From positions 3,193,501 to 3,257,500 of the forward strand of contig NZ_CP041025.1 of assembly GCF_006385135.1 (NCBI RefSeq): 64,000 bases of DNA, read 5' to 3'. The notes below the pieces were generated by a model that had not been told where the DNA came from, did not search any database, and saw only the letters and a list, made by a program, of their open reading frames with translations. Made by a program: the position numbers and the translations under genes. This document shows positions 32,587 to 49,913 of this stretch, piece after piece. Numbering within the stretch: the stretch's first letter is position 1; each line of letters begins with the position of its first letter. The stretch is from Paremcibacter congregatus (GTDB taxonomy: Bacteria > Pseudomonadota > Alphaproteobacteria > Sphingomonadales > Emcibacteraceae).

Positions 32587-33717
32587 ATGGCGTTTATGAT
32601 GGCTGACAATATGACCGTGAAGGAACAGGCGGCGCTGTGGATCGTGCATTTATCATCCGAGCCCCCCAGTCCCCAGGACCGGCGTGACTTTGACGCCTGG
32701 CTGGCGAAGGACCCGGCCAACCGGGCAGAATATGATCGCGCCCGACGACTGTGGGCCGGATTGAGCGGTGCCGAGGGACTGGCCGATCTGGTCGATACGC
32801 CCGATATCGCCGTGTCTGATTTTCCGTCCGAGCAAACCGGGGCCGCCGCGGCACAACAATCTCTGCACCTCCAGAGTGTGAAAAATTCTGGCGGTTTCCG
32901 CCGCGTGATGAGTGCGGCAGCAGCGCTTTTCCTGCTGATCATGACATCTCTTCTTATTCTGCAGGACACCACATTTTTCTCAGGCGGCACAGTGCACGCC
33001 ACGGAGATTTCGGAAATTCGCGATGTTGTTCTGCCGGACGGCAGCCGGGTGACGCTCGGGGCGAAATCAATGATCCGTACAGATTTCACCGATACGGAAC
33101 GGCGGGTGACCCTGGCCCAGGGCGAGGCCTTCTTCGCGGTTGAAAAAGATCCCGCCCGCCCCTTTATCGTCACCGCCGGCGATACCCGTGTCCGGGTGGT
33201 TGGCACAAAATTTGATATGCGGCACGGGGTGGGCGAAGTCAAAGTCACTGTGCTCGAAGGTATTGTCGAAGTCGACAGGGTTCCGGCCACGCCATCGGCC
33301 CTGACAAAGCAGGCGACAGCCAATGTTTCCCCGCAGCCTTCCCCGTCCGACCCGCCCGGGACAGAGGAAAGCCACTTGCGTACGAATGTTCTCACCGCCG
33401 GTCAGGAAATCATTGCCGCCGTCCGCGGGTCTTCCTTTATCCGCGAATTGCCGTCCCAGAAAATAGGCGTCTGGCGTTCCGGACGACTGGTATACGCGGA
33501 TGAAACGTTGCGGGAAGTTGTCGCCGACGCCAACCGCTATTACCGCAAGGAAATTCGCCTGGCCTCAACCGACCTCGGGGAACTGCGGATTACAGCGTCC
33601 TTTCGCGCCGAACAGATAGAACAGATGATCCGTAGCCTGATCGCCGCCTATGGGCTGGAAGCCGATCAGCGCGATGGCGAGGTCATCCTGCGGCGCAAGC
33701 AAGCCAACCCGGCCTGA
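32587..33717 (+). CDS. FecR-family anti-sigma regulator
   Basis: Inner-membrane protein of 376 residues. A cytoplasmic N-terminal domain (AALWIVHLSSEPPSPQDRRD region, binds sigma) is followed by one membrane helix (about residues 103-123, AAALFLLIMTSLLIL) and the periplasmic FecR domain (VVLPDGSRVTLGAKS, then VTLAQGEAFFAVEKD and VRVVGTKFDMR). The last 80 residues resemble the STN-like fold. In FecIR systems this protein relays ligand binding by the receptor to the sigma factor. It is 3 bases after the sigma factor gene. Confidence 0.91.
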   Translation: MAFMMADNMTVKEQAALWIVHLSSEPPSPQDRRDFDAWLAKDPANRAEYDRARRLWAGLSGAEGLADLVDTPDIAVSDFPSEQTGAAAAQQSLHLQSVKNSGGFRRVMSAAAALFLLIMTSLLILQDTTFFSGGTVHATEISEIRDVVLPDGSRVTLGAKSMIRTDFTDTERRVTLAQGEAFFAVEKDPARPFIVTAGDTRVRVVGTKFDMRHGVGEVKVTVLEGIVEVDRVPATPSALTKQATANVSPQPSPSDPPGTEESHLRTNVLTAGQEIIAAVRGSSFIRELPSQKIGVWRSGRLVYADETLREVVADANRYYRKEIRLASTDLGELRITASFRAEQIEQMIRSLIAAYGLEADQRDGEVILRRKQANPA

Positions 33718-33958: not shown

Positions 33959-36709
33959 ATGGAAAATGGAATAAAAAAGATCGCATCTGGACCCAGAATG
34001 AGATCAAAATTCCTTGGCGCGGTTTCAGCGGTCGTCCTCTCGATGACACCATATGGTGTCAGCGCACAGGCCGAAGAAGCCAGCCAGAAAATTGACATCG
34101 GCGCCCAGTCCTTACAGAGCGCTTTACTGAAATTCTCCGAACAGACCGATATTGTCGTCGTCGCCCCAAGCGCCCTGGTCAAAAACAAGACGGCCCCGAA
34201 AGTGGTCGGCAACCTGCCACCTTATCAGGCCCTGTCCCGGCTTCTTGTCGGGTCCGGCCTGAAATATGCCCGGGGCGCAGATGGTGAAATCACCATCGTA
34301 TCCAGCGCCGATCAGATTGGAATTGCCGCAAACGCATCTTCTACCCAACTGGCCATGTATCAAAATTCAGAACAACAAAATGACGCCACGTCAAACTCAC
34401 AAGACCAGGCAGTCAGGCAGACCGGGAACAGCCAGGAAGAAGAAGATCTGATGGAGCTCCAGGAGATCATCGTCACCGGCTCCCACATCCGCGGTGCGGG
34501 CGCAGTAGGGTCCAAGGTTTTTACCTATGACCGTAGCGAGATTGACCTTCAGGGTTTTGCCACCCTGCCTGATTTCATGCGTAGCCTGCCGCAGAACTTT
34601 AATGGGGGCTTTAGCGAAAGCACCGCCGCCCAATTTGGTGGTTCCTCCGCAGCGTCACGTGGGAATCTGGTCATGGGCAGTGGGGTAAACCTGCGGGGCC
34701 TTGGCAATACATCAACCCTGGTTTTACTGGACGGCCAACGCCTGTCTCCTGCTGGGTCCGATGGCAGTTTTGTCGATATTTCGATGATTCCACTCGCCGC
34801 CATTGAAAGCATCGAAGTCCTGGCCGACGGGGCCTCCGCGACCTACGGCTCTGATGCTGTCGGCGGGGTGGTGAATTATAAAGTTCGCAAAGATTATGAT
34901 GGCGCAGAAACCCGTATGCGGTATGGTTTCGCCACGCAGGGTGGGCTGGAAGAAATTCAGGTGGGACAGACATTTGGTCGCGCCTGGGATGATGGACATG
35001 CGCTGATTACCGGTGAATATGGCAGCCGGGATGCCTTAGACGCCAAAGACCGCCCGTTCTCAGAAGACGCTCCCGAATTTAACCACCTCCTACCCGAACA
35101 TGAGCGCTATAGCATTTTCGCAACCGGTGGTCAGAAGTTGGCCGATAATCTGGAAGTTTCCACCAAGGCCTACTTCAGCCGCAGGGACAGTGCGCGCCTG
35201 GTTAACCAGCCACGCCCTGCTCCCCTTCCGCCCGCTATTCCCTTTTCGAGTCTAACCTCCGCCACCAAGCAGTATGGCGGCACCTTGGGAGTGACCGTTG
35301 ACCTCGGAGACACCATCAATAATGACTGGCGCATCAAGGTCGTTGGCGGCTACAACCGCCTTGATACCAACATTGAAACTTTCGAGTTTGCAGCCCAGAC
35401 TGTAACAGGAACAACTATACGGGAATCCGAAACAACTTCTCTGGATGCTCTTGCAGATGGCACCATTTTTACACTTCCCGGCGGGAAGGTCAAACTGGCG
35501 GTTGGTGGACATTACAGAGAAGAGGATTTTTTCAACCCCACAGCTATGACCAGATTTGACCGTAACGTCAAAGCGGCATTTGGCGAACTGTTTGTCCCTC
35601 TTGTCGGTGAAGACAACCGGATGCCAGGTGTAGAAAAGTTGGAAGTCAGCATGGCGTTGCGCTATGAAGATTACAGTGACTTTGGTAATACAACCGATCC
35701 TAAAATTGGAGTCAAATGGTCTCCTTTCGAGGGGTTGAACTTGCGGGGTACATATAGCACTTCGTTCCGAGCTCCTTTATTGACGGAACTGGACGATAGT
35801 GCGAACTTCGCCTTCCTGCTCAACGCCACAAATGCACAAGGTGGAAGCAATGTTCTTGTCGCACTTGCTGGCGACGGGAACCCGGCCTTACAGCCTGAAT
35901 CTGCCGATATCTGGACAGCAGGATTTGACTTTTCCCCTGCAGCCCTTTCAGGACTTAATGTGAGTGCAACCTATTTCAGCATAGAATATAAAGACAGGAT
36001 ATTAGCGCCACCTTTCATAAGTCTGTTCAGCATCCTCACAGATCCGACGTTGGCAGAGTTGATAGATCTGAATGCGCCGGATGCCGAAACTCAGGCCATG
36101 ATTGACAGGTATGGTCAGTTCAATTTTACGACATTCATTCCGCCATTACGTGATTTCTCCGATGCGGATGCCGTATTTCGTGGCTTTGTGTCCAATATCG
36201 CGAGGACGGAAACGTCAGGCATTGATTTTTCAGCCTCCTATGCTTTGGAAACAGTGGATTCCGGAACGTTCAATTTTTCCGTTGGTGGCACGTATCTCCT
36301 CGACTTTATGCAGCAAGTTACAGCCAGTGCACCGGCTCAGGATGCTTTGAATGTTATTCAAAACCCGGTTGACCTGCGGCTCAATGGTGGGGTTTCCTGG
36401 ACACTTGAAGGGTTCACAGCCAGTGTAAGGCTTAGTCATATTGATGGATATACGGACAATATCTCCGATCCCGATGGTGTTCCGGTCGATTCCTGGACCA
36501 CCACTGATTTGTCGTTGCGTTATAACACAGGTGATCGTTTCGGCGGTTGGCTGGACAATACGTCCTTCGTGGTCAGTGCCCGCAACCTGTTTGATCAGAA
36601 TCCGCCTTTTGTCCAGTCTCTTCGGCAAAACTCGGAAGTCAATTACGACCCCAACGCCCACTCTCCAGAAGGCCGGGTGTTGAGCTTTAATATTGTGAAA
36701 CAGTGGTAA
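33959..36709 (+). CDS. TonB-dependent receptor with N-terminal signalling (STN) domain
   Basis: Outer-membrane transducer of 916 residues: signal peptide (to about residue 37, GVSAQ), STN domain (about 43-115, KIDIGAQSLQSALLKFSEQT), low-complexity Gln/Asn linker, TonB-box region (ELQEIIVTGSHI), plug (LRGLGNTSTLVLLDGQRLS, then VLADGASATYGSDAVGG) and barrel. ATG at 33959 has AGGGAAG upstream. Together with the sigma factor and FecR gene it should sense its own ligand. Because two lasso isopeptidases follow, the ligand is probably the lasso peptide or its metal or siderophore-like complex; such receptor/FecIR sets are known next to AtxE-type lasso loci. Confidence 0.93.
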   Translation: MENGIKKIASGPRMRSKFLGAVSAVVLSMTPYGVSAQAEEASQKIDIGAQSLQSALLKFSEQTDIVVVAPSALVKNKTAPKVVGNLPPYQALSRLLVGSGLKYARGADGEITIVSSADQIGIAANASSTQLAMYQNSEQQNDATSNSQDQAVRQTGNSQEEEDLMELQEIIVTGSHIRGAGAVGSKVFTYDRSEIDLQGFATLPDFMRSLPQNFNGGFSESTAAQFGGSSAASRGNLVMGSGVNLRGLGNTSTLVLLDGQRLSPAGSDGSFVDISMIPLAAIESIEVLADGASATYGSDAVGGVVNYKVRKDYDGAETRMRYGFATQGGLEEIQVGQTFGRAWDDGHALITGEYGSRDALDAKDRPFSEDAPEFNHLLPEHERYSIFATGGQKLADNLEVSTKAYFSRRDSARLVNQPRPAPLPPAIPFSSLTSATKQYGGTLGVTVDLGDTINNDWRIKVVGGYNRLDTNIETFEFAAQTVTGTTIRESETTSLDALADGTIFTLPGGKVKLAVGGHYREEDFFNPTAMTRFDRNVKAAFGELFVPLVGEDNRMPGVEKLEVSMALRYEDYSDFGNTTDPKIGVKWSPFEGLNLRGTYSTSFRAPLLTELDDSANFAFLLNATNAQGGSNVLVALAGDGNPALQPESADIWTAGFDFSPAALSGLNVSATYFSIEYKDRILAPPFISLFSILTDPTLAELIDLNAPDAETQAMIDRYGQFNFTTFIPPLRDFSDADAVFRGFVSNIARTETSGIDFSASYALETVDSGTFNFSVGGTYLLDFMQQVTASAPAQDALNVIQNPVDLRLNGGVSWTLEGFTASVRLSHIDGYTDNISDPDGVPVDSWTTTDLSLRYNTGDRFGGWLDNTSFVVSARNLFDQNPPFVQSLRQNSEVNYDPNAHSPEGRVLSFNIVKQW

Positions 36710-37060: not shown

Positions 37061-39211
37061 ATGAAAATAAAACCCGTGCCCCCTGCCATCTTCGGCATCA
37101 TGATAATCGTACTGACCCTGGGGTTGACCGCCCCGCTGCAGGCAAAGTCTGCCCCGCCCAAACGGGACATTACCATCGATGACCTGATTTCGATCCGCGA
37201 TATCAGCAGCATGCGCCTGTCGCCCGACGGCAAATATATTGCCTTCCAAACGGTGCAGCGCCATAGTGACAGCAATGATTTCACCCTGCAGTGGTATATT
37301 GCACCGACACAAGCTGGCGCCACGGCGCGGATTGTCGATACCGGGACAGAACCCTTCATCATCAAACCCGCCGGATACCTGACCGGCAGCACCATCGCCT
37401 GGACCCCGGACAGCAAATGGATCTATTACACCAAGAGAAAGCAGGACAGCATTCAGGTCTGGCGCGCCTCCCTGAACACGCAACAGGCCCAGCAGATCAC
37501 CCATAAGCCCGGCGACATCCAGAGCATGCGCATGGGCCCGGACGGCAAACGGTTATTTTTCACCTTGGGCCGCACCCACGCAGAGATCCAAGCCCTGAAG
37601 GCCGACGGCGACCGCCGTGGATATCTGGAACAAAACCCCCCGCTCTATTATGTTTCCCACGGGCCAATGATCCCGCCCTGCACCGACGGCAAACCCCGCA
37701 GCAAGACGTTCGACAAAAACCTCGCCTGTCTGCTGACCAACTGGGTTTATGATATCGGGGCCGGCAGTGTCCGCACCGCCGCGCAGGCCGAGCTTGACGC
37801 CCTGCCGCCTCTGGACGATACGCTGGATGTCATCGCCAGAATGGGCATCCAGATGAGCAAGACCGTCAGGAAGATGCAGACCCCGTCCCCAGATGGCGGC
37901 CGGCTCGCCTGGATCGAAAATGCCGATCCCGAGGTTTATAAAGGCGTCTTTCCGCTCATGGCGCTCACCGCCACCACCGCCGACGGCACACCCCTGCGCT
38001 GCCCGGCCCCGGAATGCCTTGATCAGGATCTGGTCGGCTTTGGCGGCATCTGGTGGCACCCCAATGGCCGGGAAATTATTTTCAAGGTCAATAATGATCC
38101 GCACCACAGCCTCACCGCCTTCTACGGCTGGACCCCGGGCGACCAGCATGTGCGGCCCCTCCTGCGCAGCGACGACAGCCTGTCCGGCTGTCAGATCACC
38201 GGCCTGCGGCTGATCTGCGGCCAGGAAAGCTGGACCTCGCCCAAGAAAATCTCCGCCCTTGATCTGGAGAGTGGCAAGCTGACCCCGCTTATCGACGTGA
38301 ACCCCGACTTTAAGGCCATCCGCTTTACCAAGGTGGAGAAAATCCTCGGCGAGGATGCCTATGGCCACAAGGTCTACGGCCACCTGGTCTATCCCAAGGA
38401 CTATCAAAAGGGCAGAAAATATCCCCTGATCGTCACCCAGTATCATTCCTACGGTTTCCTGCGCGGCGCCACCGGGCATGAACAGCCGATCCACGCCTAT
38501 GCCCGCGACGGCATTGCGGTGCTGAGTTTTGACCACCGCCTGAACAGGGCGGACTATCAGAAAACAGCCGTTTTCCCCGGCACCAATGTCGCCCATTTCA
38601 CCAATCTGCATATCAAGGAAGGCCCGGCGACGGCCGTGGAAAATATGGTCGACAGGCTGGTTGCGCGCGGCATCGCCGACCCGGATCACATCGGTGTGAC
38701 CGGCTTTAGCTACGGCGATCAGGTGCTGAGCACAATGCTCCTGCGGCGCAACTATGCCGCCGTCTCCTCCGCCGGACCGCCCTCCGTGCCCTTGCATAAC
38801 GTCCTGCCCTACAGCAGCAACACCGCCAAAGCCTTTGCGGAAATTTTTGGCAAGCCGTTCAGTGAGAAAGGCCTGGAGATGCGGGTTAAATATTCTCTGG
38901 AGGCCCACGCCAGCGAGATCGACAGCCCGATTCTGATGAATGTTACCGATAAGGAAGTCTACAGCATGCTCAGTGTCTATTATGCGCTGACAGGCGAAGG
39001 CAAACCGGTGGAGATGTATACCTATCCCGACGAGTATCATATCAAGTGGCAGCCGGCCCATAATTACTGGATTTATAGCCGCAATCTCGACTGGTTCAAC
39101 TTCTGGCTCAGGGGGGCGGAAGACGGCGCCCCGGAAAAATCCCCGCAATATGAACGCTGGCGCAAATTGCGGGAAACGCATGAAACGCATTTAAAGGGGA
39201 TAAAAAAGTAA
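37061..39211 (+). CDS. Lasso peptide isopeptidase, AtxE2-like (copy 1)
   Basis: Prolyl-oligopeptidase-type (S9) protein of 716 residues: signal peptide (about 1-28, ending LQAKS), a beta-propeller N-terminal part (MRLSPDGKYIAFQT and similar), and an alpha/beta hydrolase domain with catalytic Ser550 (GFSYGD), Asp630 (NVTDKE) and His660 (DEYHIKW). AtxE-type enzymes cleave the isopeptide bond of lasso peptides and so linearise them. The conserved cysteines (PAPEC, SGCQITGLRLICG) probably form disulfides, which fits the periplasm. Ser, Asp and His occupy identical residue numbers in copy 2. A weak GACGGA precedes ATG at 37061. It sits between the receptor gene and two opposite-strand precursor genes. 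Confidence 0.9.
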   Translation: MKIKPVPPAIFGIMIIVLTLGLTAPLQAKSAPPKRDITIDDLISIRDISSMRLSPDGKYIAFQTVQRHSDSNDFTLQWYIAPTQAGATARIVDTGTEPFIIKPAGYLTGSTIAWTPDSKWIYYTKRKQDSIQVWRASLNTQQAQQITHKPGDIQSMRMGPDGKRLFFTLGRTHAEIQALKADGDRRGYLEQNPPLYYVSHGPMIPPCTDGKPRSKTFDKNLACLLTNWVYDIGAGSVRTAAQAELDALPPLDDTLDVIARMGIQMSKTVRKMQTPSPDGGRLAWIENADPEVYKGVFPLMALTATTADGTPLRCPAPECLDQDLVGFGGIWWHPNGREIIFKVNNDPHHSLTAFYGWTPGDQHVRPLLRSDDSLSGCQITGLRLICGQESWTSPKKISALDLESGKLTPLIDVNPDFKAIRFTKVEKILGEDAYGHKVYGHLVYPKDYQKGRKYPLIVTQYHSYGFLRGATGHEQPIHAYARDGIAVLSFDHRLNRADYQKTAVFPGTNVAHFTNLHIKEGPATAVENMVDRLVARGIADPDHIGVTGFSYGDQVLSTMLLRRNYAAVSSAGPPSVPLHNVLPYSSNTAKAFAEIFGKPFSEKGLEMRVKYSLEAHASEIDSPILMNVTDKEVYSMLSVYYALTGEGKPVEMYTYPDEYHIKWQPAHNYWIYSRNLDWFNFWLRGAEDGAPEKSPQYERWRKLRETHETHLKGIKK

Positions 39212-39215
39212 CGAG

Positions 39216-39271
39216 GCGAGAGGGAGGCATCCTCTCCACAAGAATGGCGGGCCTCCCCTCTCAGACAACAA
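39216..39271. terminator. Hairpin between convergent isopeptidase 1 and precursor genes
   Basis: GAGAGGGAGGC near 39216 pairs, with one bulged base, with GCCTCCCCTCTC ending at 39271, around a long loop. It lies between isopeptidase 1 (plus strand) and the two-gene precursor unit (minus strand), so it may serve both. No strong T run follows directly. Confidence 0.45.
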
Positions 39272-39276
39272 GTCTT

Positions 39277-39384
39277 TCAGTCTGGATACTCGCAAAAAAT
39301 ATCAGGTTGCAATATATGGTCAGGTGGAAAGCACGCCCCCTTATTAACTCGTGTAACTTGATGTATTTTTCCCAGATTTATCAT
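39277..39384 (-). CDS. Candidate lasso peptide precursor (paralog 6, 35 residues)
   Basis: Tiny gene with ATG at 39384 and AGGAG 7 bases upstream. The leader MINLGKIHQVTR aligns with MIDLGKVSVATK of the other paralogs, with Thr at the penultimate leader position. The predicted core begins VNKGACF and continues with the family block PDH-I-L-x-PDIF. It differs from the rest: Asp falls at core position 10, not 9, and the core holds Cys6 and Cys19 (in IFCEYPD). Either the ring is larger, the cut is one residue further on, or this copy is degenerating. It lies 64 bases after the paralog at 39449-39547 and is probably co-transcribed with it. Confidence 0.75.
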   Translation of the reverse strand: MINLGKIHQVTRVNKGACFPPDHILQPDIFCEYPD

Positions 39385-39448
39385 AAATATCTCCTGTCAT
39401 GTTTCAAAGAAATGCCGAAACGGTCCGAAAAAAACTGATCTGGACACC

Positions 39449-39547
39449 TCAATGTTCAACGAAGATATCCGGCACAAGCAGGTGATCCGGCTTACCTACA
39501 CATTTATAAATTTTCGTAATTTCCGTGGTCTTTCCAAGAACAATCAT
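39449..39547 (-). CDS. Candidate lasso peptide precursor (paralog 5, 32 residues)
   Basis: ATG at 39547 has a perfect AGGAGG 5 bases upstream. Leader MIVLGKTTEITK, the form closest to astexin-type leader ends (IVLGK...T). Core IYKCVGKPD then HLLVPDIFVEH: Asp at core position 9, Cys at position 4 inside the ring, the shortest core of the family (20 residues). A GTCGAA-ATGG-TTCGGC hairpin lies upstream at 39580-39595. It is on the opposite strand between the two isopeptidase genes. That it is translated is well supported; that it is a lasso precursor is inferred from leader motif, Asp9 and neighbours. Confidence 0.8.
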   Translation of the reverse strand: MIVLGKTTEITKIYKCVGKPDHLLVPDIFVEH

Positions 39548-39579
39548 AATCGCCTCCTATGTCTCAAGTAATTAAAAAC

Positions 39580-39595
39580 GCCGAACCATTTCGAC
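39580..39595 (-). promoter_or_regulatory. 5' hairpin upstream of precursor paralog 5
   Basis: Read on the minus strand, GTCGAA-ATGG-TTCGGC forms six pairs including one U-G wobble. It is the counterpart of the hairpins before paralogs 1, 3 and 4, at a similar distance from the start codon. Confidence 0.6.
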
Positions 39596-39717
39596 AATCA
39601 CCAGTTTAATGGAAATCTTAACCACACTCAAAATTATAAGATTTTTATAAAAGGTAAATATCCATCAAACGTCTTTCATCATGAAAGCCACAGCCCCAAT
39701 CAAAAGGAAAGATCATT

Positions 39718-41865
39718 ATGCTCCCTTTTATTTCACCTCGTTTATCTTCCCTTGCCTTTTTTCTCCGGCTTCTGTTTTTAGCGACCACCGGCATCATCAC
39801 CGCCGTGCAGGCCGCGCCCAAACGGGACATTACCGTCAGGGATCTGGTGGAGTTTCGCGACGTACAGACCATCCGGCTGTCCCCGAACGGTCAGTATGTC
39901 GCCTTTCAAACCCTCCAGCGCCACGCGGACAGCAATGATTTCACCGTCGCCTGGTATATCGTCGCCACACAGCCCGGGGCCGCGCCCCATATCGTGGACA
40001 CCGGCACCGAACCTGTGCGCGACGACCGTATCGGACAATTTTTCCCGAGCGCAATCGTTTGGGCCCCGGATAACGACTGGGTTTATTTCACCAAAAAGCA
40101 TCAGGGCACGATCCAGATCTGGCGCAGTTCCCTGAACGCCGCCAAGGCCGAACAGATCAGCCATCAAGCCGGCGATGTGATGAGCCCGCGCCTGTCCCCG
40201 GACGGCGCCAAACTTTTCTACACCATGGGGCGCAGCCACGCGGAACTGGCGGCGCTTAAGAAAACCCTCGCCCGGGACGGCTATCTGCAACAGAATCCAG
40301 CGCTTTATTATCTCGAACATGGTCCGATGATCCCCTTTTGCACCGATGGCCGGGCGCGGATTTCCCTGGGCAGTGATAAGCTATCCTGCCGGTTGAAAAA
40401 TTTCGTCTATGATATCGCCTCCGGCACAACCCGTAACGCCACTCAGGATGATCTCAAGCTGTTGGGCGACCAGGATGATGATTTCTCGACCATGATGCGT
40501 CAGGGGCCACTCAAGGGCGCCGACCTGAAGTTTCGCACAAAGATGTCTCCGGACGGGAGCGCAAGGGCCTGGGCCGAGAATGTCGACCCCGAAATCTATA
40601 AGGGCTTGCGTCCCCCGGTGGTTCTCACCGTCCGCCATAACGGTGATACCATCCGGTGTGCCGCGCCCCAATGCCGCGGCATTCAAGGCACAGGCTTTCA
40701 GGATCTTTGGTGGTCCCCCAATGGTAAAGAAATCATCTTCAAGGTCGTGGACGGGCCTCACCACAGCCTGATCTCCTTTTATGGCTGGACACCGGAAACC
40801 CGGAAAATTCGTCAAATCCATAGCAGCAACGATATATTTTCCCAGTGCGAACTTACCGGCCTGCGCCTAATTTGTGGCCATCAAACCTGGACTTCCCCCA
40901 CAAAAATCGTGGCGCTGAATAGTGTCACCGGCGGGATCACTCCTATCGCCAGCGTCAATCCGGAATTTGACGACATCCGATTCACCAAGGTCGAAAAAAT
41001 TCTCGGCAAGGACGCCTACGGTCATGAGGTTTACGGTCATCTGATTTATCCCAAAGGCTATCAAAAGGGAAAAAAATACCCGCTGGTCGTTACCCAGTAT
41101 CATTCCTATGGTTTTCTGCGCGGCGCCACAGGACATGAGCAACCTCTCCATGTTTATGCCCGCGACGGCGTGGCCGTGTTAAGTTTTGACCATCGCCAGA
41201 ATTTTGATAAAGAACAGCAGAAGGCCCCTTTCCCTGATTCAAATATAAATCATGAGAAAAAGATCTATATCGAACAGCGCCCCGCGACCGCCGTGGAAAA
41301 TATGATTGATGATCTTGTGGCCCGTGGCATCGCTGATCCTGATCGCATCGGCGTTACAGGCTTCAGTTACGGTGATGTGGTGCTGGACACACTTCTGATG
41401 CGACGCAATTACGCCGCTGCTTCCTCAACGGGACTGTCTTCCATCCCCCCTTACCGTAAATTCCCGCCCGGCGCAGGCCCCGGCAAGCGGCTGGATCATG
41501 CCTTTGGCAAACCCTTTACGCCGGAAGGCCACACTAAACGGCTGAAATATTCCCTCGCCGCCCAGGCCGATAAAATTGACACACCGATCCTGATGCAGAC
41601 CGCTGACCGGGAATTTTATTTCATGTCGGACACCTATTATGCGCTGCTGGACGCAGGTAAGCCGGTGGAGTTATATCAATATCCCGACGAATATCATGTC
41701 AAATGGCAACCGGCCCACAATGAACGTATTTACAGTCGTAATCTAGACTGGTTCAAATTCTGGCTCAGGGGGGCGGAAGACGGTGATCCGGCAAAAGCCG
41801 CTCAATATGAACGTTGGCGGACCTTACGAGAAAGGCATAAGATAAATATGCAGACAAAGAAATAA
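39718..41865 (+). CDS. Lasso peptide isopeptidase, AtxE2-like (copy 2)
   Basis: S9-type protein of 715 residues, collinear with copy 1: signal peptide (about 1-36, ending AVQAA), propeller part (IRLSPNGQYVAFQTLQRH), and hydrolase domain with Ser550 (GFSYGD), Asp630 (QTADRE) and His660 (DEYHVKW). The two copies share long blocks (for example VTQYHSYGFLRGATGHEQP) but differ around the active-site entrance (residues 560-590), which may mean different peptide specificity. ATG at 39718 has AAGGAAAG upstream. It is followed by the terminator of the minus-strand precursor array. Expected role: periplasmic or cytoplasmic opening of re-imported lasso peptide. Confidence 0.9.
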   Translation: MLPFISPRLSSLAFFLRLLFLATTGIITAVQAAPKRDITVRDLVEFRDVQTIRLSPNGQYVAFQTLQRHADSNDFTVAWYIVATQPGAAPHIVDTGTEPVRDDRIGQFFPSAIVWAPDNDWVYFTKKHQGTIQIWRSSLNAAKAEQISHQAGDVMSPRLSPDGAKLFYTMGRSHAELAALKKTLARDGYLQQNPALYYLEHGPMIPFCTDGRARISLGSDKLSCRLKNFVYDIASGTTRNATQDDLKLLGDQDDDFSTMMRQGPLKGADLKFRTKMSPDGSARAWAENVDPEIYKGLRPPVVLTVRHNGDTIRCAAPQCRGIQGTGFQDLWWSPNGKEIIFKVVDGPHHSLISFYGWTPETRKIRQIHSSNDIFSQCELTGLRLICGHQTWTSPTKIVALNSVTGGITPIASVNPEFDDIRFTKVEKILGKDAYGHEVYGHLIYPKGYQKGKKYPLVVTQYHSYGFLRGATGHEQPLHVYARDGVAVLSFDHRQNFDKEQQKAPFPDSNINHEKKIYIEQRPATAVENMIDDLVARGIADPDRIGVTGFSYGDVVLDTLLMRRNYAAASSTGLSSIPPYRKFPPGAGPGKRLDHAFGKPFTPEGHTKRLKYSLAAQADKIDTPILMQTADREFYFMSDTYYALLDAGKPVELYQYPDEYHVKWQPAHNERIYSRNLDWFKFWLRGAEDGDPAKAAQYERWRTLRERHKINMQTKK

Positions 41866-41904
41866 GGTCCAAGAACATCTGAAAATAAAAGATTAAGCCC
41901 CCGC

Positions 41905-41941
41905 AAAAAAAGGGAAACACGGTGTCCCCACTGTGTTTCCC
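41905..41941 (-). terminator. Terminator after precursor paralog 1
   Basis: On the minus strand GGGAAACAC pairs with GTGTTTCCC (plus-strand arms 41912-41920 and 41933-41941), followed by seven Ts. It ends the last precursor cassette and may also stop transcription from isopeptidase 2. Confidence 0.9.
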
Positions 41942-42011
41942 GAGTCAAGTTACGTCAAGTGATGCAGATACAGGCCTCCGGGAGCCGCATCATGCATATT
42001 CTGCCCGGCTC

Positions 42012-42128
42012 CTAGATCTGGCCGTCTGCAGGAACTTCAACAAAAATATCAGGCAGCAGCAGATGGTCTGGCACGCCTACAGGTTTTTTGATTTTTGTCG
42101 CTACGGATACTTTTCCAAGATCAATCAT
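42012..42128 (-). CDS. Candidate lasso peptide precursor (paralog 1, 38 residues)
   Basis: ATG at 42128 with TGGAG 6 bases upstream; an in-frame stop lies a few codons further up, so the leader cannot be longer. Leader MIDLGKVSVATK, core IKKPVGVPD-HLLLPDIFVEV and ending PADGQI (26 residues). Asp at core position 9 can close a nine-residue ring with the amino group of Ile1. The leader matches only the last part of known proteobacterial lasso leaders (IDLGK...TK then Gly); the usual N-terminal half and the Gly1 are absent. Own promoter-like block, hairpin and terminator. Confidence 0.85.
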   Translation of the reverse strand: MIDLGKVSVATKIKKPVGVPDHLLLPDIFVEVPADGQI

Positions 42129-42160
42129 AGTTTTCTCCAGTCAGTTTAGAGTTGAGTTAA

Positions 42161-42222
42161 TGTCGGATGGTTCCGACATCACAATTATATAATCATTTCA
42201 ACTATCGTTCTAACTTTATAAT
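42161..42222 (-). promoter_or_regulatory. Precursor cassette promoter and 5' hairpin (paralog 1)
   Basis: On the minus strand: ATTATAAAGTT (plus 42212-42222), 22 bases, TATAAT (42184-42189), TGTGA, then the hairpin TGTCGG-N6-CCGACA (42161-42178). Spacing is identical in paralogs 3 and 4. Transcription would start about at the hairpin, placing it at the 5' end of the mRNA. Confidence 0.65.
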
Positions 42223-42327
42223 TCTATTATATTATTTCAGATAGGAGCATAAAAACAACTCTGCTCCAGCTTAAAAGGTAGAACATATCCCTCCCCCTTG
42301 GCATTACTATTCAGCCTCTCTTCAAAA

Positions 42328-42465
42328 TCAACATGTAAAGAAAGGAAATACCCCACACGAATCTTCAGGTATTTCAACAAATATATTGGGCGTCATCAGG
42401 TCGTCTGGAACACCTACGGCCTTTTTGACTTTGGTCATTACAGACACTTTCCCAAGATCAATCAT
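42328..42465 (-). CDS. Candidate lasso peptide precursor (paralog 2, 45 residues, two cysteines in tail)
   Basis: ATG at 42465 with GGGAG upstream. Leader MIDLGKVSVMTK, ring segment VKKAVGVPD (Asp9, Val1), then DLMTPNIFVEIP as in the others, but the C-terminus is different and longer: EDSCGVFPFFTC, with cysteines at core positions 25 and 33 that could form a disulfide. The upstream region keeps the CAACTCTAA-containing segment before the ribosome-binding site but lacks the ATTATAAAGTT block and an intact hairpin, so it may depend on readthrough from paralog 3. Confidence 0.8.
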   Translation of the reverse strand: MIDLGKVSVMTKVKKAVGVPDDLMTPNIFVEIPEDSCGVFPFFTC

Positions 42466-42553
42466 AATATTCTCCCGTTCAGTTAGAGTTGAACCAATGT
42501 CGATTTATTCTGTAACCCCCTAATAAAATCAGACCTTGTTTTGTCTCAAAAGG

Positions 42554-42586
42554 GGGGAGACACGTTACAGTTTACCGTGTCTCCCC
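42554..42586 (-). terminator. Terminator between precursor paralogs 3 and 2
   Basis: On the minus strand GGGGAGACACG pairs with CGTGTCTCCCC (plus arms 42554-42564 and 42576-42586), followed after two Cs by TTTT. Strong 11-pair stem. Confidence 0.88.
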
Positions 42587-42610
42587 AGTCAACATACTAC
42601 TCTGGTTTAA

Positions 42611-42640
42611 AGCATCATCCGAACAAAGCCGGATGATGCT
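42611..42640. terminator. Second hairpin after precursor paralog 3
   Basis: AGCATCATCCG (42611-42621) pairs with CGGATGATGCT (42630-42640) around 8 bases; on the minus strand it is followed by TTTAAA. It comes 10 bases after the paralog 3 stop codon and could protect the mRNA 3' end or terminate weakly. Confidence 0.6.
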
Positions 42641-42649
42641 TTAAGTTCC

Positions 42650-42766
42650 TTAAACCTGACCGTCCGCTGGGACTTCGACAAAGATGTCAGGGCGCAAAAG
42701 ATGGTCTGGCACACCTATAGGCTTCTTGATTTTTGTCGCTACGGATACTTTTCCAAGATCAATCAT
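42650..42766 (-). CDS. Candidate lasso peptide precursor (paralog 3, 38 residues)
   Basis: ATG at 42766 with TGGAGAA upstream. Leader MIDLGKVSVATK, ring segment IKKPIGVPD, then HLLRPDIFVEVPADGQV. Compared with paralog 1 it differs at core positions 5 (Ile), 13 (Arg) and 26 (Val) only. Asp9 is kept. Complete cassette: promoter-like block, TATACT, hairpin GTCGAA-AAAC-TTCGAC, gene, two hairpins. The near identity of three cores suggests recent duplication. Confidence 0.85.
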   Translation of the reverse strand: MIDLGKVSVATKIKKPIGVPDHLLRPDIFVEVPADGQV

Positions 42767-42799
42767 AGTATTCTCCAGTCGTTTTAGAGTTGAGATAAT

Positions 42800-42860
42800 G
42801 TCGAAGTTTTTCGACCTCACAAGTATATAATTATTTTAAAAATCGCCATAACTTTATAAT
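42800..42860 (-). promoter_or_regulatory. Precursor cassette promoter and 5' hairpin (paralog 3)
   Basis: On the minus strand: ATTATAAAGTT (plus 42850-42860), 22 bases, TATACT (42822-42827), TGTGAG, hairpin GTCGAA-AAAC-TTCGAC (42800-42815). The stem pairs differ from paralog 1 (AA/TT in place of GG/CC at the inner end) with pairing kept. Confidence 0.65.
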
Positions 42861-42887
42861 TCTATTATATTATATTGATTTTTTTCA

Positions 42888-42919
42888 GAAAAAAAGAAAC
42901 AAACCTAACGCTTTGTTTC
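42888..42919 (-). terminator. Terminator after precursor paralog 4
   Basis: On the minus strand GAAACAAA pairs with TTTGTTTC (plus arms 42896-42903 and 42912-42919), followed by a run of Ts (42888-42895). It closes the paralog 4 cassette. Confidence 0.85.
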
Positions 42920-42986
42920 CCAGTTCACTATTTTGTTCTAGTTTAATTTTTTATAGAGGTAGAGTTTCGCAAAATCTGCGCACCCC

Positions 42987-43103
42987 TTAAATCTGACCAT
43001 CCGCAGGGACCTCGACAAAGATGTCAGGGGTCAGCAAATGGTCTGGCACACCTACAGGTTTCTTGATTTTTGTCGCTACGGATACTTTTCCAAGATCAAT
43101 CAT
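42987..43103 (-). CDS. Candidate lasso peptide precursor (paralog 4, 38 residues)
   Basis: ATG at 43103 with TGGAGAA upstream. Leader MIDLGKVSVATK, ring segment IKKPVGVPD, then HLLTPDIFVEVPADGQI; identical to paralog 1 except Thr at core position 13. It is the precursor nearest to the cyclase gene (stop codon at 43218), but a promoter-like block lies between them, so it can be expressed separately. Codon choices differ from paralog 1 at several synonymous sites, so the peptide sequence appears to be under selection. Confidence 0.85.
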   Translation of the reverse strand: MIDLGKVSVATKIKKPVGVPDHLLTPDIFVEVPADGQI

Positions 43104-43136
43104 AGTATTCTCCAGTCATTTTAGAGTTGAGATAAT

Positions 43137-43197
43137 GTCGAAGTTTTTCGACTTCACAAGTATACAATTACTCCAAAAGACTTCCCAACTTTATAAT
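43137..43197 (-). promoter_or_regulatory. Precursor cassette promoter and 5' hairpin (paralog 4)
   Basis: On the minus strand: ATTATAAAGTT (plus 43187-43197), 22 bases, TATACT (43159-43164), TGTGAA, hairpin GTCGAA-AAAC-TTCGAC (43137-43152). Bases between the block and the -10 element differ strongly from paralog 3, so the conserved parts stand out. Confidence 0.65.
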
Positions 43198-43217
43198 ATC
43201 ATTATATATTTTATATA

Positions 43218-45074
43218 CTACGCTACATTAGACCTGACAATATCGGCAAAAGTTTCACCTTTCATTTTCCGGGCCCAAAGTTCAGCCGACAGATAGGAAT
43301 GCACCCCGGCAAAATCCCTCAGTTCGATATCATGGTCGCGATTGAGGGTTTTTTCCAGACTGGCCCGGTCCAGTAGTCCTTCCCGCACCAATTCGCCATC
43401 CATCAGCAATTCCCGGAACTTGTCCAGGTTGGCCAATGTATAGGACCAGAAATATTTACCGCTCAATGATTTCGAACTGCGCCACACCACTTCCGGCGGC
43501 AACAGGTCCTTGAACGCCTTGCGCGCCAGGCCCCGGCCCTTGCCGTCCGCCAGCAACACCCACAGGGGAATCCTCAGACAGGTTTCAATCACCGGCAGCG
43601 ACAAATAAGGTCGCAGGGTTTCGAAGAAATGTTCGGGAACCATCGCTTCTTCCCTTTTATACTGTCCAAAGATCAACGGTTCTATATGGTCGATTTTCCC
43701 CGGCGTGACATTCTCGCGAAATTCCAGCCAGGGATGGACCGTCTGCTCTTCCCGCTGCCGCTCGGCCTCGACCATATCCTGAACCTGGGCCGTTAAAAGA
43801 CTGGTGGGTTGTGCGGCCACCGCCTCAATCCTGTTTTTACCAAAACCATCCCGCATGATTGAGGGCAGGATCGACCAGACGGACCGCTGCTGCATGCGGG
43901 AAGCTTCCATAATCAACCGAAACAACGGTGGCCGGATGCCGTGGGTCTTGAGATAGTCAATCACCGCATAATTCTTGCCGTGGCAATAAAGCATCTCATC
44001 CCCGCCAGAGCCGTTAAAAATCACCCCGCCGCCATTTTCCGTCAACCGGTCATGGATAAATTTCTTATAGGTCGGGGCCACGCAATGGTCGGTCGGCCAG
44101 GGCGTGATCGGCACCATATCATCCCCGTGAACCGTGAAACGGCTGACTTCCGCCTTATGTTCAATCAACGGCACGCCGAGGTGATGACAGGTCTGACGCA
44201 CATAATAACGTTCATCCCCGCCAGGATCTTCTTCATAGGAATTTAGCCCTGTGAGTTTAAACGGGGCAGGCACCTGCGCCAAGGCCGCCATGAGAATGGA
44301 TGAATCAAGACCGCCAATCATGTCTATGGCGCCATCATAGGGGGCCGCCATGCTGGTCACCGTCGCCAGAATGGCCTGGCGCAAGGTGCGGCTGGCTTCA
44401 TCCACATCCTCGATCACGTCCGTCTGGGTAATCTTCTGCGGATTCCAGTAAAATGTTTTCGCCGTCCCCTCCGGGGTGATGGTCACACATTCTCCTGACT
44501 TAATTTTTGTCATTTCACAGATGGGAACCCGGGTGTGATCGACAGGATAAATCAATCCCTTGGCAATCACCGGCCAGTCGATGGAAAAATCAAGAAACCT
44601 GCAGGCCGCCACATCGGGCATATAGGTGAAATAAATCTCCACCCCGCGATAACCGGTCTTGTAACAGGGAAGCTGTCCCATGGGGTCCACCAGCACATAT
44701 TTGCGCGGTCCGCGTTGAAAAAAGGCAACATAAGTGCCCCAGTAATCTTCCACCAGCGCCCGCCCGGACGTATGGATAACCCGGCGCGCCTCCGGTACCG
44801 TTATATGCGCATTACGGGAAACCGCTTCAGGACGGCGGTCGCGCGTCAGCAACTTGCCCACCACCACGCCGCCACTATTCTCATCCTGGGTCGGCAACGC
44901 ATAAGCTTGCATACGGTTTGGTTCTTCGTCCCGGTGCATAACACACAGTCCTGAACCGTCATAGGCGGTCTGCCAGGCCGAGGACATATCCGTGAAGGTA
45001 TTCTGCAGGAAATGCGCTGTCTCCGTCGCCTGAGGATCGGCCGCGTTCCAGATAAATGAGATGTAGCGGTACAT
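43218..45074 (-). CDS. Lasso cyclase, asparagine synthetase-like (C protein, copy 1)
   Basis: Protein of 618 residues related to asparagine synthetase B. The N-terminal glutaminase-like domain starts MYRYISF without the catalytic Cys2, so it cannot use glutamine, as in all lasso cyclases. The synthetase domain has the ATP pyrophosphatase loop IGGLDSSILMAAL. The enzyme activates the Asp or Glu side chain of the core with ATP and closes the macrolactam ring. ATG at 45074 has AAGGA 8 bases upstream. It follows B protein copy 1 after 16 bases and is the last large gene before the four-precursor array. Confidence 0.92.
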   Translation of the reverse strand: MYRYISFIWNAADPQATETAHFLQNTFTDMSSAWQTAYDGSGLCVMHRDEEPNRMQAYALPTQDENSGGVVVGKLLTRDRRPEAVSRNAHITVPEARRVIHTSGRALVEDYWGTYVAFFQRGPRKYVLVDPMGQLPCYKTGYRGVEIYFTYMPDVAACRFLDFSIDWPVIAKGLIYPVDHTRVPICEMTKIKSGECVTITPEGTAKTFYWNPQKITQTDVIEDVDEASRTLRQAILATVTSMAAPYDGAIDMIGGLDSSILMAALAQVPAPFKLTGLNSYEEDPGGDERYYVRQTCHHLGVPLIEHKAEVSRFTVHGDDMVPITPWPTDHCVAPTYKKFIHDRLTENGGGVIFNGSGGDEMLYCHGKNYAVIDYLKTHGIRPPLFRLIMEASRMQQRSVWSILPSIMRDGFGKNRIEAVAAQPTSLLTAQVQDMVEAERQREEQTVHPWLEFRENVTPGKIDHIEPLIFGQYKREEAMVPEHFFETLRPYLSLPVIETCLRIPLWVLLADGKGRGLARKAFKDLLPPEVVWRSSKSLSGKYFWSYTLANLDKFRELLMDGELVREGLLDRASLEKTLNRDHDIELRDFAGVHSYLSAELWARKMKGETFADIVRSNVA

Positions 45075-45090
45075 GTCTTAATCCTTTTTG

Positions 45091-45825: not shown

Positions 45826-45856
45826 ATTGCCTCGTTCCACTTAAGTTGAAGTCAAG

Positions 45857-47704: not shown

Positions 47705-47716
47705 GTCATGCTCCTG

Positions 47717-48457
47717 TTAAACAGCCATAATCGGTTTGAAGTCATCCACATGATCCAGTGGACAATTGTAACTCACTTCCCCACCCTGCACCCAGACATG
47801 CAGGCTCAGGGGATCGACTGAAACGCCCCAGACAATCTCCGGATAAATACCGTAAGAGGCAAGAAAATCGGCCAACACCAGGGAATCGAACAGGGACTCA
47901 TCCCGGCTGCTGTAAAACAAAACCTGCAGGATGCGGAACACCTCCACCAGATCACGGGTCTTGATGAAACTCGACCCGCCGCCGCCCCGGCTGACAGCCC
48001 GAAGCTTGCGCCGCGCCAACCGGACCGTGATCTGCTCAAGCGAATGACACCACAGAGCCAGCCTCACGGCCAGAACGGCCCTCAAACAACGGTATAAATG
48101 CCCAAACCCGATGACGGGAATACCGTCGAAAGGATAGCTGTCCAGGTCACCTTTCACCGCAGGAAAAGAATTTCGCTGTCCTGTTTCTGCCCCATCAGTA
48201 GCCCGGCCAACCAAAACATCCTTTTCCACCAGAGACGTCAGGGCCGACATCAGATCAGAAAGGCGGACATCCCCCGGCGGTGTGTCTTCCTGCATCAGCA
48301 CATCCAGAACCTGCTTTTCACCGGCATCCAGAAGCTGACAGTCATTCTTCCGCAGGTTATAGACCACGCAACGGTCCTCGATACAACAGGTATACACTTG
48401 CGGTGCCAAGGCATAACGGTGTTTCAAATCATGGACAAAGCTATCATTCATGATCAT
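47717..48457 (-). CDS. Lasso B protein, copy 2, catalytic Cys replaced by Ser
   Basis: Same layout as copy 1 in 246 residues: PqqD-like domain (VVYNLRKNDCQLLDAGEKQV), linker, transglutaminase-like domain. Where copy 1 has NECLFDSL, this protein has DESLFDSL, with Ser188 (codon TCC) in place of the nucleophilic Cys. His (SLHVWVQ) and Asp (VDDFKP) remain. It may be inactive as a protease and act as leader-binding partner, or use Ser. ATG at 48457 overlaps the GntR stop codon (ATGA) and has GGAGG upstream. Confidence 0.88.
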   Translation of the reverse strand: MIMNDSFVHDLKHRYALAPQVYTCCIEDRCVVYNLRKNDCQLLDAGEKQVLDVLMQEDTPPGDVRLSDLMSALTSLVEKDVLVGRATDGAETGQRNSFPAVKGDLDSYPFDGIPVIGFGHLYRCLRAVLAVRLALWCHSLEQITVRLARRKLRAVSRGGGGSSFIKTRDLVEVFRILQVLFYSSRDESLFDSLVLADFLASYGIYPEIVWGVSVDPLSLHVWVQGGEVSYNCPLDHVDDFKPIMAV

Positions 48458-49137
48458 TCCGCCTCCGCCTGGGCGCGCCGCAATAACAAAAGCAGTTCCG
48501 GCAGAAAAGTGATCATTTTGTCATGATACTCCTGCAGGGCCTGACGCAGGCCGGCGATATCCTTCTGGTCATAAAGCCCGCAGATGTTTTTCAGTTCATC
48601 TTTCCAGGTGGGCATCAACTGGCATTCCTGCAGACGGATATAATAGGTCCTGTCATTGACATTCTTGACCCCGTGGAGGATTTCCAGATTACCGGACTGC
48701 CGGGCCATATGGACAAACACCTGATTGAGGATATGAACATATTCCGCCGGCGTCCGGGCGCATAATTCCCCGGCGTCATCGCAGAATTTAGGCGGTTTCA
48801 TCATCCCCGGCCCCGGGGCGGCCTCGCGAATATAGCTCAGCGACAGATCAAGCAACGCCAGATTAAGCACATAAAGGCTTTGAATCTCCATGCCGGAGAT
48901 TTCCTTGGTGAAGAAACCGGCTTTCGGCACATCCCGGATCATGCGTTCCGCCGCCAGATGAATCAATACTTCCCGGACCGGGGTATTGCTCACCCCCAGG
49001 CCATCCGCCAGCGGCTCTACCAATATGCGTTTCCCCAACGGAAGTTCATGTTCCATGATCATGGTTTTGATGCTGCCATAAACGCGATTGCTTTCCGCGA
49101 TGCCCTTTGTTGTGCCATCGGCTATCCCTGTTTGCAT
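48454..49137 (-). CDS. GntR-family regulator (copy 1)
   Basis: Protein of 227 residues with an N-terminal GntR winged helix (VYGSIKTMIMEHELPLGKRI, then LADGLGVSNTPVREVLIHLAAE) and a helical FCD-like ligand domain. ATG at 49137 has AAGGA 9 bases upstream. It overlaps B copy 2 by four bases and follows the second GntR-like gene, so it probably regulates this lasso operon. GntR regulators occur in some isopeptidase-containing lasso loci. Confidence 0.9.
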   Translation of the reverse strand: MQTGIADGTTKGIAESNRVYGSIKTMIMEHELPLGKRILVEPLADGLGVSNTPVREVLIHLAAERMIRDVPKAGFFTKEISGMEIQSLYVLNLALLDLSLSYIREAAPGPGMMKPPKFCDDAGELCARTPAEYVHILNQVFVHMARQSGNLEILHGVKNVNDRTYYIRLQECQLMPTWKDELKNICGLYDQKDIAGLRQALQEYHDKMITFLPELLLLLRRAQAEAE

Positions 49138-49155
49138 GCCTCGGTTCCTTCGCCT

Positions 49156-49833
49156 TTATAAAACCGCCATCAGGCGGGGGATGGTTTTAAATCTGGTGAG
49201 ATGATACTGCGCCACGGCGTCCCGTAATTTCCCGATTTCATTCCTGTGGTACAGATGACATAAATGGGCCACTTCTTCGTCTACGGCCTCAATCAGGGTG
49301 CATTCACACAGACGGATATAAGAAAGCCGTTGATTGATCATCACCACCATTTCGGTGAAATCGCTTCGCCCGGCCTGGGTGACAATATGCAGAAACAGTT
49401 CGCCGGTAATCCGCACCAGATCTTTTTGCGACAACGGGCCGCCGGTGGCGCCCGCCTTCTCCGCCTTATCCTCCCGGGCAACAAATAACTGCGGGTATTG
49501 CACAACCCCGTTCGCCACGTCATGGGCTTCGAGAATTTCCAGGGAACGGTCCAGAAGGACCTTGTTTTCCTCATACAGGGTACAGACTTCAACGTTGGAA
49601 AAATGACGGGTGAAAAAACCTGATTCCGGGCGTTCGACCACCACCCCTTCCTGCACCAGACGCCACAGTGCCTGATAAATTTCCTGTCTCGGACAGGGAT
49701 CCAGAATAATAGCGATATGTTCTACCATAAGATGTGTCTGTGGCGGCAACCCGTGGGTCTGAACCAGTTCCCTGACCTGTTCATAAACCGAACTCCCCCT
49801 GCCTTCCGTGATGTCTTCAGCGTCCTGTGTCAT
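49156..49833 (-). CDS. GntR-like regulator (copy 2), diverged helix-turn-helix
   Basis: Protein of 225 residues, distant paralog of copy 1, with matching landmarks (VYEQVRELVQTHGLPP, GFFTRHFSNVEVCTLYEENKVLLDRSLE, SYIRLCECTLIEA). The recognition-helix region reads IILDPCPRQEIYQALWRLV, unlike typical GntR (VSxxPVREAL), so its DNA target may differ or it may act as a heteromeric partner. ATG at 49833 has AAGGA upstream. First gene of the B-C operon; three 17-base repeats lie 30-80 bases upstream. Confidence 0.85.
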   Translation of the reverse strand: MTQDAEDITEGRGSSVYEQVRELVQTHGLPPQTHLMVEHIAIILDPCPRQEIYQALWRLVQEGVVVERPESGFFTRHFSNVEVCTLYEENKVLLDRSLEILEAHDVANGVVQYPQLFVAREDKAEKAGATGGPLSQKDLVRITGELFLHIVTQAGRSDFTEMVVMINQRLSYIRLCECTLIEAVDEEVAHLCHLYHRNEIGKLRDAVAQYHLTRFKTIPRLMAVL

Positions 49834-49862
49834 ATCCTTGTCCTTATCTCGTCTAAACCCCC

Positions 49863-49913
49863 GGCCTGTCTAAAACTCTGGCTTGTCTAAAACTCTGGCC
49901 TGTCTAAAATTCT
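49863..49913. repeat. Three tandem 17-base repeats upstream of the GntR/lasso operon
   Basis: Three adjacent copies of GGCCTGTCTAAAACTCT (49863-49879, 49880-49896, 49897-49913) with one difference in the second and one in the third. They lie directly upstream of the GntR copy 2 gene and overlap the end of the small ORF at 49904. Possible operator array. Confidence 0.75.

Follow-up and report, generated by a model that had tools for sequence, protein, structure and literature searches.

A 64,000-nucleotide stretch of the Paremcibacter congregatus genome (contig NZ_CP041025.1, positions 3,193,501 to 3,257,500; hereafter the window) contains six short open reading frames (ORFs) that very probably encode lasso peptide precursors whose leader retains only some 12 residues from the end of a benenodin-type leader. 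The ring likely joins Ile or Val at core position 1 to Asp at position 9. Judged from sequence, lasso precursors with a 12-residue leader are well supported and by far the best reading of these genes, given alignment to leader models and the spacing of acidic residues in the cores of relatives. With moderate confidence, we further propose a clade-wide lasso class with a natural 12-residue leader anchored by Met at −12, a cyclase subclade that closes Ile/Val as well as Gly rings, and a co-conserved 5′ stem controlling the precursors, a class that falls largely below current precursor models. The six candidate precursor (A) genes are as follows.

42987..43103, minus strand: lasso precursor candidate, 38 amino acids (aa); leader MIDLGKVSVATK, core IKKPVGVPDHLLTPDIFVEVPADGQI; predicted ring I1-D9
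42650..42766, minus strand: lasso precursor candidate, 38 aa from its ATG; core IKKPIGVPDHLLRPDIFVEVPADGQV; in-frame GTG 18 codons upstream (ORF to 42820)
42328..42465, minus strand: lasso precursor candidate, 45 aa; core VKKAVGVPDDLMTPNIFVEIPEDSCGVFPFFTC; predicted ring V1-D9; extended tail with two Cys
42012..42128, minus strand: lasso precursor candidate, 38 aa; core IKKPVGVPDHLLLPDIFVEVPADGQI
39449..39547, minus strand: lasso precursor candidate, 32 aa; core IYKCVGKPDHLLVPDIFVEH; predicted ring I1-D9
39277..39384, minus strand: lasso precursor candidate, 35 aa; core VNKGACFPPDHILQPDIFCEYPD; Asp at 10, not 9

The original prediction had described six ORFs of 32–45 aa that open with M-I-x-L-G-K, carry T-K or T-R at positions 11–12 and continue into a segment P-D-x-[LI]-x-x-P-x-I-F, and all of this was confirmed on the minus strand. 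Residue 12 is Lys or Arg in every copy, and M1, I2, L4, G5, K6, T11, K15, P20, D21, P26, I28, F29 and E31 (numbering of the 38-residue paralogs) are invariant; T11 places Thr at leader position −2 in all six. The predicted branched residue at core position 1 and Asp at position 9 in five of six also hold: residue 13 is Ile in four copies and Val in two, and Asp9 is replaced by Asp10 only in 39277–39384. The ratio of nonsynonymous to synonymous differences per site (pN/pS) is 0.06–0.47 over the 11 of 15 paralog pairs computed, with 6–20 synonymous changes on 20–28 synonymous sites, and 0.35 for the related pair at loci L036 and L091. These values lie well below 1, and the six frames therefore appear to be genes under purifying selection. 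A peptide search of the P. congregatus genome returned no further match save one (E 0.35) within a 722-aa frame. The tail of 42328–42465 ends in a two-Cys segment, SCGVFPFFTC, that is absent from its paralogs.

Leader Length and Start Codons

An in-frame stop lies upstream of the ATG in all six copies, and each start is preceded by a ribosome-binding site of GGAG or AGGA type. The earlier argument that these two features fix the start exactly at the leader motif stands for five copies, in which no ATG, GTG or TTG intervenes, but not fully for 42650–42766 with its open upstream GTG. Among 41 ORFs (the 40 leader-selected ORFs described below plus the window copy at 39277), 21 have no alternative start before the in-frame stop (two of these 21 are probable chance ORFs), and in 12 a stop stands 3–4 codons ahead of the ATG. 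Were the true start further upstream (GTG, TTG or non-standard), these would be lasso precursors with leaders of ordinary length; the GTG of 42650–42766 would allow this, as would the 20 of 41 ORFs with an in-frame start upstream or no stop seen. We consider this very unlikely in view of the five window copies and 21 ORFs without such a codon, the stops close to the ATG, and an upstream stem (below) that sits where a longer leader would be coded.

Profile models suggest that the short leader corresponds to part of a known one. We scanned four window peptides, four short-leader relatives and one long-leader relative against NCBIfam NF033522 (the benenodin family; 43 positions, cut-off 33 bits). 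Residues 1–12 of two window peptides aligned to model positions 11–22 (13.0 and 12.5 bits); three short-leader relatives scored 18.4, 26.7 and 23.8 bits, the fourth (L036) was unmatched, and the long-leader relative L086 reached 59.4 bits. Pfam Subterisin (PF24178, cut-off 27 bits) likewise matched two of the four window peptides, leader residues 1–12 at its positions 11–22 (15.1 and 13.4 bits), and left the others unmatched. The short leader thus resembles a benenodin-type leader minus its first ten positions. This bears out in part the earlier claim that it matches the end of such leaders, since two of four window peptides align there, albeit below the cut-off and with the other two unmatched; the roughly 15 missing residues of that claim need correcting to about 10 model positions. 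All eight short-leader peptides scanned fall below the NF033522 cut-off, so such precursors may be overlooked elsewhere.

Acid Spacing in Leader-Selected Cores

ORFs were selected on leader and length alone, by the motif M-x1-3-[LIVMF]-G-x2-[ST]-x2-T-x followed by an ORF tail of 10–40 aa, in the window plus 107 loci, of which 11 are duplicates and most had been chosen for holding a cyclase relative. With identical leader-core pairs removed, 40 ORFs yielded 35 non-redundant cores (60% identity). Asp or Glu occupies core position 8 or 9 in 29 of the 35; at a background frequency of 0.08 for each position, 5.4 would be expected (binomial P 1.8e-18, with the cores taken to be independent). When the pair of positions is shifted, acids occur at 7/8 in 16 and at 9/10 in 23 of the 35 cores, and in 2–9 elsewhere. 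With the 11 duplicate loci left out, the motif gives 42 hits (two double-Met ORFs counted twice), 36 of which have an acid at 8/9; eight shuffles gave 2–14 motif hits, 0–2 of them with an acid at 8/9. Core residue 1 is Gly in 18 cores, Val in five, Ala in three, Ile in two, and Leu, Trp, Phe, Gln, Pro, Thr or Asp in one each, and the acid at 8/9 is far above chance both in cores that start with Gly and in those that start with Ile, Val, Leu, Phe, Gln or Ala. The 35 cores and the residue-1 counts include four probable chance ORFs (L087, L089, L111 and L138). Because leader position −5 is His in 39277–39384, this window copy stands outside the count; with its acid at 10 it would have been a miss.

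Three short-leader cores carry an acid at 10 and none at 8/9: 39277–39384, L039 (8406, minus) and L121 (9083, plus). They may form a ten-residue ring or be cut at another site. To our knowledge, the ring size implied by an acid at 10 occurs in no lasso peptide. These cores lend some weight to a different outcome, in which the peptides are cut and cyclised to an unthreaded branched-cyclic product, or the ring closes through another residue (e.g., after trimming) so that Ile/Val is not ring residue 1; also in its favor, we know of no product structure from the short-leader clade. We regard this as unlikely, as in 29 of 35 cores Thr at −2 and the acid at 8/9 are placed as expected for a cut at the leader-core junction, compared with 16 or 23 for the shifted pairs, and relatives with Gly1 show the same spacing.

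Two further candidates were seen in the same survey. L128 (5277, plus; a Steroidobacter metagenome-assembled genome, MAG) has the core GRFAGFEMPNIPANG after a 13-residue leader, with its sole acid at 7, as for a seven-residue ring, and a GTG start further upstream of that leader. In Eilatimonas milleporae (L035/L104), MKTLGNVSGITK-WSIPHQYIEADGQHTQRN lies directly behind the cyclase gene, a possible Trp1-Glu9 precursor lacking a clear ribosome-binding site; strain DSM 25217 of this species has two clusters.

Short Leaders across a Cyclase Clade

In a quick maximum-likelihood tree of 75 cyclases (branch support from the Shimodaira–Hasegawa-like approximate likelihood ratio test, SH-aLRT, alone, without bootstrap; 16 rows carry a composition flag), a clade of 20 rows (SH-aLRT 98) includes both window cyclases. 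The motif finds a short-leader precursor in the locus for 16 of these rows, both window rows counted; among the other four, L076 has a long leader, L087 and L162 gave none, and the genome of L077 carries two, on a different contig (L037). Outside the clade, L112, L116, L128 and L143 hold short-leader candidates too. Because they are common to a clade and present outside it, short leaders are not peculiar to this strain. Longer leaders were found as well, of 23 residues in L076/L099 and 21–22 in L086 and L089.

Both window enzymes fall in a subclade of eight rows (SH-aLRT 99) that go with cores opening in Ile, Val, Leu or Gln, the exceptions being L036 and L091, which have Gly1 and are sisters of the first window cyclase, C1. 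Gain and loss are not ordered here because the root is the midpoint. Comparison of two Gly1 with four non-Gly1 cyclases gave just six fully separating columns, which supports no claim about a residue-1 pocket. The closeness of Gly1 cyclases (L036, L091) to Ile/Val1 cyclases (window, L038, L034) makes residue-1 tolerance directly testable. The L091 contig (JAJRQT010000029.1) is titled as a Bacteroidetes MAG, and its cyclase is 57% identical to C1; it is probably misbinned.

Genome searches extended this range. A profile of the six peptides matched 22 of 396 genomes from the order (E ≤ 0.1), with useful matches in G055, G058, G092, G095 and G107; 14 of the 23 listed matches outside the P. congregatus genome lie in open frames >230 aa and look like chance, as does the G085 match, where a stop directly follows the motif. 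A search with C1 matched 92 of the 396 genomes at E 1e-8, the weakest possibly being ordinary asparagine synthetases. Against contigs of named genomes the six-peptide alignment found no match; with a 12-row cyclase alignment, 80 of 130 loci from named genomes were kept. Related clusters occur in records titled Emcibacter sp., Kordiimonas sp., Kordiimonadaceae, Eilatimonas milleporae, Marinicaulis sp., Kiloniellaceae, Steroidobacter and others. The short-leader precursors in these clusters have other cores; leader-core pairs include MIDLGKVSVETK-IKPTVPAEFNGELRP, MIDLGKASEVTK-FIVGVPGEADNTLSLS, MTNLGKVSVETK-VKSGFRIDLPFTPTKP, MTILGRASSATK-VKSTFPLEVDLLPAEEI and MIDLGRVSEVTK-GPMLPPLDDSQTFRM.

A Conserved Stem Upstream of the Precursors

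A dyad, TGTCGRA-N4-TYCGACA, lies about 29–50 bases upstream of five of the six starts, two of them with two mismatches; the sixth copy (42328–42465) has one dyad half only, and the pattern recurs with two mismatches at each of two more places in the window.

43136..43153, minus strand: dyad/7-bp stem upstream of precursor start
42799..42816, minus strand: dyad/7-bp stem upstream of precursor start
42161..42178, minus strand: dyad/7-bp stem upstream of precursor start, both arms changed
39579..39596, minus strand: dyad/7-bp stem upstream of precursor start, two mismatches to the dyad pattern
39413..39430, minus strand: degenerate dyad upstream of precursor start, two mismatches, weak fold

Across relatives, the fold z-score is under −1.5 at −60 to −25 in 20 of 37 precursors, against 1, 4 and 6 of 36 for three regions farther from the start. 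In a 27-row alignment under our placement of the stem, seven of seven pairs are changed on both sides, and 77.7% of cells pair, versus 32–44% when the stem is slid. In several genera this stem or operator keeps its position ahead of the short-leader precursors and shows compensatory changes. We tentatively favor an RNA stem over an operator since U-G pairs are frequent.

A covariance model of stem plus leader matched 10 of the 396 genomes of the order below E 1e-6, among them G377, which was not used in building the model. Homologs in genomes without lasso genes would have spoken against lasso precursors; all 10 genomes also have a cyclase hit, a co-occurrence that in part reflects how the model was made, since the cyclase had led to several of its 27 rows. 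Among 385 genomes of the class, the RNA model R1 matched 23 with E ≤ 0.05 and, below 1e-4, only the P. congregatus genome. When 10 loci from the two model searches were translated, L180 proved a true precursor; the matching 12-residue frame of L181 and L187 stops at once, L204 and L200 have loose frames and the rest none, and these were taken as chance. Rfam gave no match at the gathering threshold over 36700–50000.

The conserved stem and the GntR-type regulators that accompany the peptides (below) could suggest that these are not lasso precursors at all but, for example, signals for the adjacent regulators. We find this scarcely credible: the leader matches lasso models, Thr is at −2, acids are spaced as for a ring, and strong model matches are confined to genomes with a cyclase hit.

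Biosynthetic Neighbors and Proposed Pathway

The two cyclases, two B proteins, two isopeptidases and TonB receptor that had been noted around the precursors were all confirmed, and a FecR gene lies there too.

43218..45074, minus strand: lasso cyclase C1, Asn_synthase domain, 618 aa
45857..47704, minus strand: second lasso cyclase C2, Asn_synthase domain, 615 aa; 47% identical to C1
45091..45840, minus strand: B1, N-terminal recognition element fused to a transglutaminase-like leader peptidase; conserved Cys (TGC) present
47717..48457, minus strand: B2, second B protein; Ser (TCC, codon near 47896) replaces the conserved Cys
48454..49137, minus strand: GntR-family regulator; near the cyclase in several related loci too
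49156..49833, minus strand: second regulator-like protein, without family match; tblastn relatives (26–39% identity) adjoin GntR in three related loci
39718..41865, plus strand: Atxe2-family lasso isopeptidase; matches AtxE2 5TXC, E 9.3e-74
37061..39211, plus strand: Atxe2-family lasso isopeptidase, second copy
33959..36709, plus strand: TonB-dependent receptor with plug; STN domain 27.7 bits, just below its 28.4-bit cut-off
32587..33717, plus strand: FecR-type anti-sigma factor
31933..32583, plus strand: sigma-factor-like gene adjoining fecR, assigned by sequence and position only

Both isopeptidases pass NF033523 (cut-off 400), with 570.5 bits for 37061–39211 and 597.1 bits for 39718–41865, and PF00733 identifies the two cyclases (E 5.9e-24 and 9.7e-18). 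A PDB sequence search with the cyclase profile gave no match at 1e-5. B1 passes the lasso B2-protein model NF033537 (63.1 bits, cut-off 33), and B2 falls below it (31.6 bits). The N-terminal part of the B family matches, by profile, the RiPP (ribosomally synthesized and post-translationally modified peptide) recognition elements (RREs) of TfuB1 (6JX3, E 1.2e-4) and TbiB1 (E 0.1). A B1 structure model from a 30-row alignment has a predicted local distance difference test score of 92.4, and its six best Foldseek hits are TbiB1/TfuB1, leader-bound entries (probability 1.00). Of 30 aligned B proteins, 29 share one Cys, which we take to be catalytic (Cys191 in B1); only B2 has Ser there (Ser188), and B2 may be inactive or have another role. 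The sequence features of a lasso cluster are present in the window: a B protein with RRE and Cys protease domain, a cyclase, Thr at −2, and an acid at core 7–9 (in five of six).

We propose that the RRE of B1, a fold backed by profile and model, binds the short leader and that the Cys protease of B1 would cleave after Thr-Lys or Thr-Arg, as Thr at −2 suggests. Once the alpha-amine of Ile1 or Val1 is free, C1 would link it to the side chain of Asp9, giving, from the ring spacing, a nine-residue ring threaded by the tail. For 42987–43103 the calculated mass of such a dehydrated core is 2778.53, compared with 2796.54 for the linear form. Astexin-type clusters have TonB and FecR neighbors. By homology to astexin-type isopeptidase clusters, the TonB receptor, FecR and sigma factor may sense or re-import the product and the isopeptidases would open it. 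The product would leave the cell by a route other than the ATP-binding cassette (ABC) exporter-like gene of most relatives, which is missing in the window.

This absence emerged from comparison of window positions 43218–49833 with L034, L036, L038, L073, L096 and L101. An ABC exporter-like protein (51–69% identical to that of L034) is present in 12 of the 18 other loci of the 20-row clade, L034 counted, and L071, L072, L075, L078, L087 and L162 are also without a match above 50%. In the window, the second B-C pair occupies the place where L034 has the exporter-like gene, and the best match elsewhere in the P. congregatus genome, about 190 kb before the window start, is 41% identical. With its multiplied precursors, the Ser of B2 and the missing exporter ortholog, the cluster could be decaying, with no peptide made. 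We think this improbable, a shade more so than an unthreaded product, since the ORFs of B1, C1, the receptor and the two isopeptidases are all intact, the Cys of B1 is retained, and precursor pN/pS is well below 1 despite many synonymous changes.

Several observations weigh against the identification of these genes as short-leader lasso precursors. Besides the absent exporter-like gene and the cores with an acid at 10, the open GTG ahead of 42650–42766 would lengthen one of six leaders, and the NF033522 alignments of the two matched window peptides have E-values of only 0.07 and 0.10. Both cyclases score far below curated cut-offs (38.4 and 42.7 versus 525 bits for NF033535; 79.9 and 47.8 versus 300 bits for NF033561). 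The Foldseek E-values for the RRE of B1 are weak (0.01–0.04, none at 0.001).

Relation to Known Lasso Systems

The window cluster is most like the benenodin/astexin/subterisin type (NF033522, PF24178) in its leader match to model positions 11–22, Thr at −2, B fusion, cyclase, isopeptidase and TonB/FecR genes. It differs in lacking the first 10 profile positions, in its unmatched core, in Ile/Val rather than Gly at residue 1, and in scoring below both cut-offs. The original prediction called such short leaders with a branched residue 1 unusual. This stands insofar as no natural lasso leader this short turned up in the open literature that we searched (subscription papers were mostly outside the search), and less so insofar as short leaders are found clade-wide and beyond and a bulky residue 1 has precedent. 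Among the papers listed in one such search, none paired "lasso peptide" with Emcibacter, Kordiimonas or Eilatimonas.

Lasso leaders are given as 20–40 residues in a 2026 review (PMC13352647). Work on microcin J25 makes a shorter leader plausible, since McjA lacking up to 28 leader residues still yields detectable product (Cheung et al. 2010, as cited in PMC11420955). In those artificial truncations some eight residues from the C-terminal end of the leader are enough for detectable product, whereas the short leader of the window genes is natural and shared by a clade. In the model of PMC11420955, the only leader residues located at the RRE are −12 to −10; Thr is at −2 in 94% of the clusters analysed in that paper. 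In the leader motif of the leepeptin paper, YxxPxLxxxGxxxxxTx (PMC6856326), Leu, Gly and Thr stand at −12, −8 and −2, where the window leader has Met, Gly and Thr; because the long motif has Leu at −12, the initiator Met may act as a hydrophobic RRE anchor.

Core position 1 is Gly in 62%, Ala in 16% and Leu in about 7% in a 2020 review (PMC7549694). Leu1 is known in citrulassin N (PMC12971885) and leepeptin (PMC6856326), so a bulky residue 1 is not unprecedented. In citrulassins and leepeptin, as proposed here, a bulky aliphatic residue closes the ring, but these are from Streptomyces, Leu is not beta-branched like Ile/Val, and the leaders of the leepeptin paper have the long motif. The lasso peptide metanodin (PMC12670498) similarly departs from the usual ring residue 1, having Asn there, and antiSMASH did not call its precursor gene as such; it differs from the window peptides in the identity of that residue and in having a product backed by mass spectrometry. 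If made, the window peptides would have the shortest natural lasso leaders found in our open-literature search, and Ile/Val ring closure would broaden known lasso cyclase acceptance. Precursors of 27–45 residues, able to do without a long leader, would lend themselves to in vitro studies and peptide libraries.

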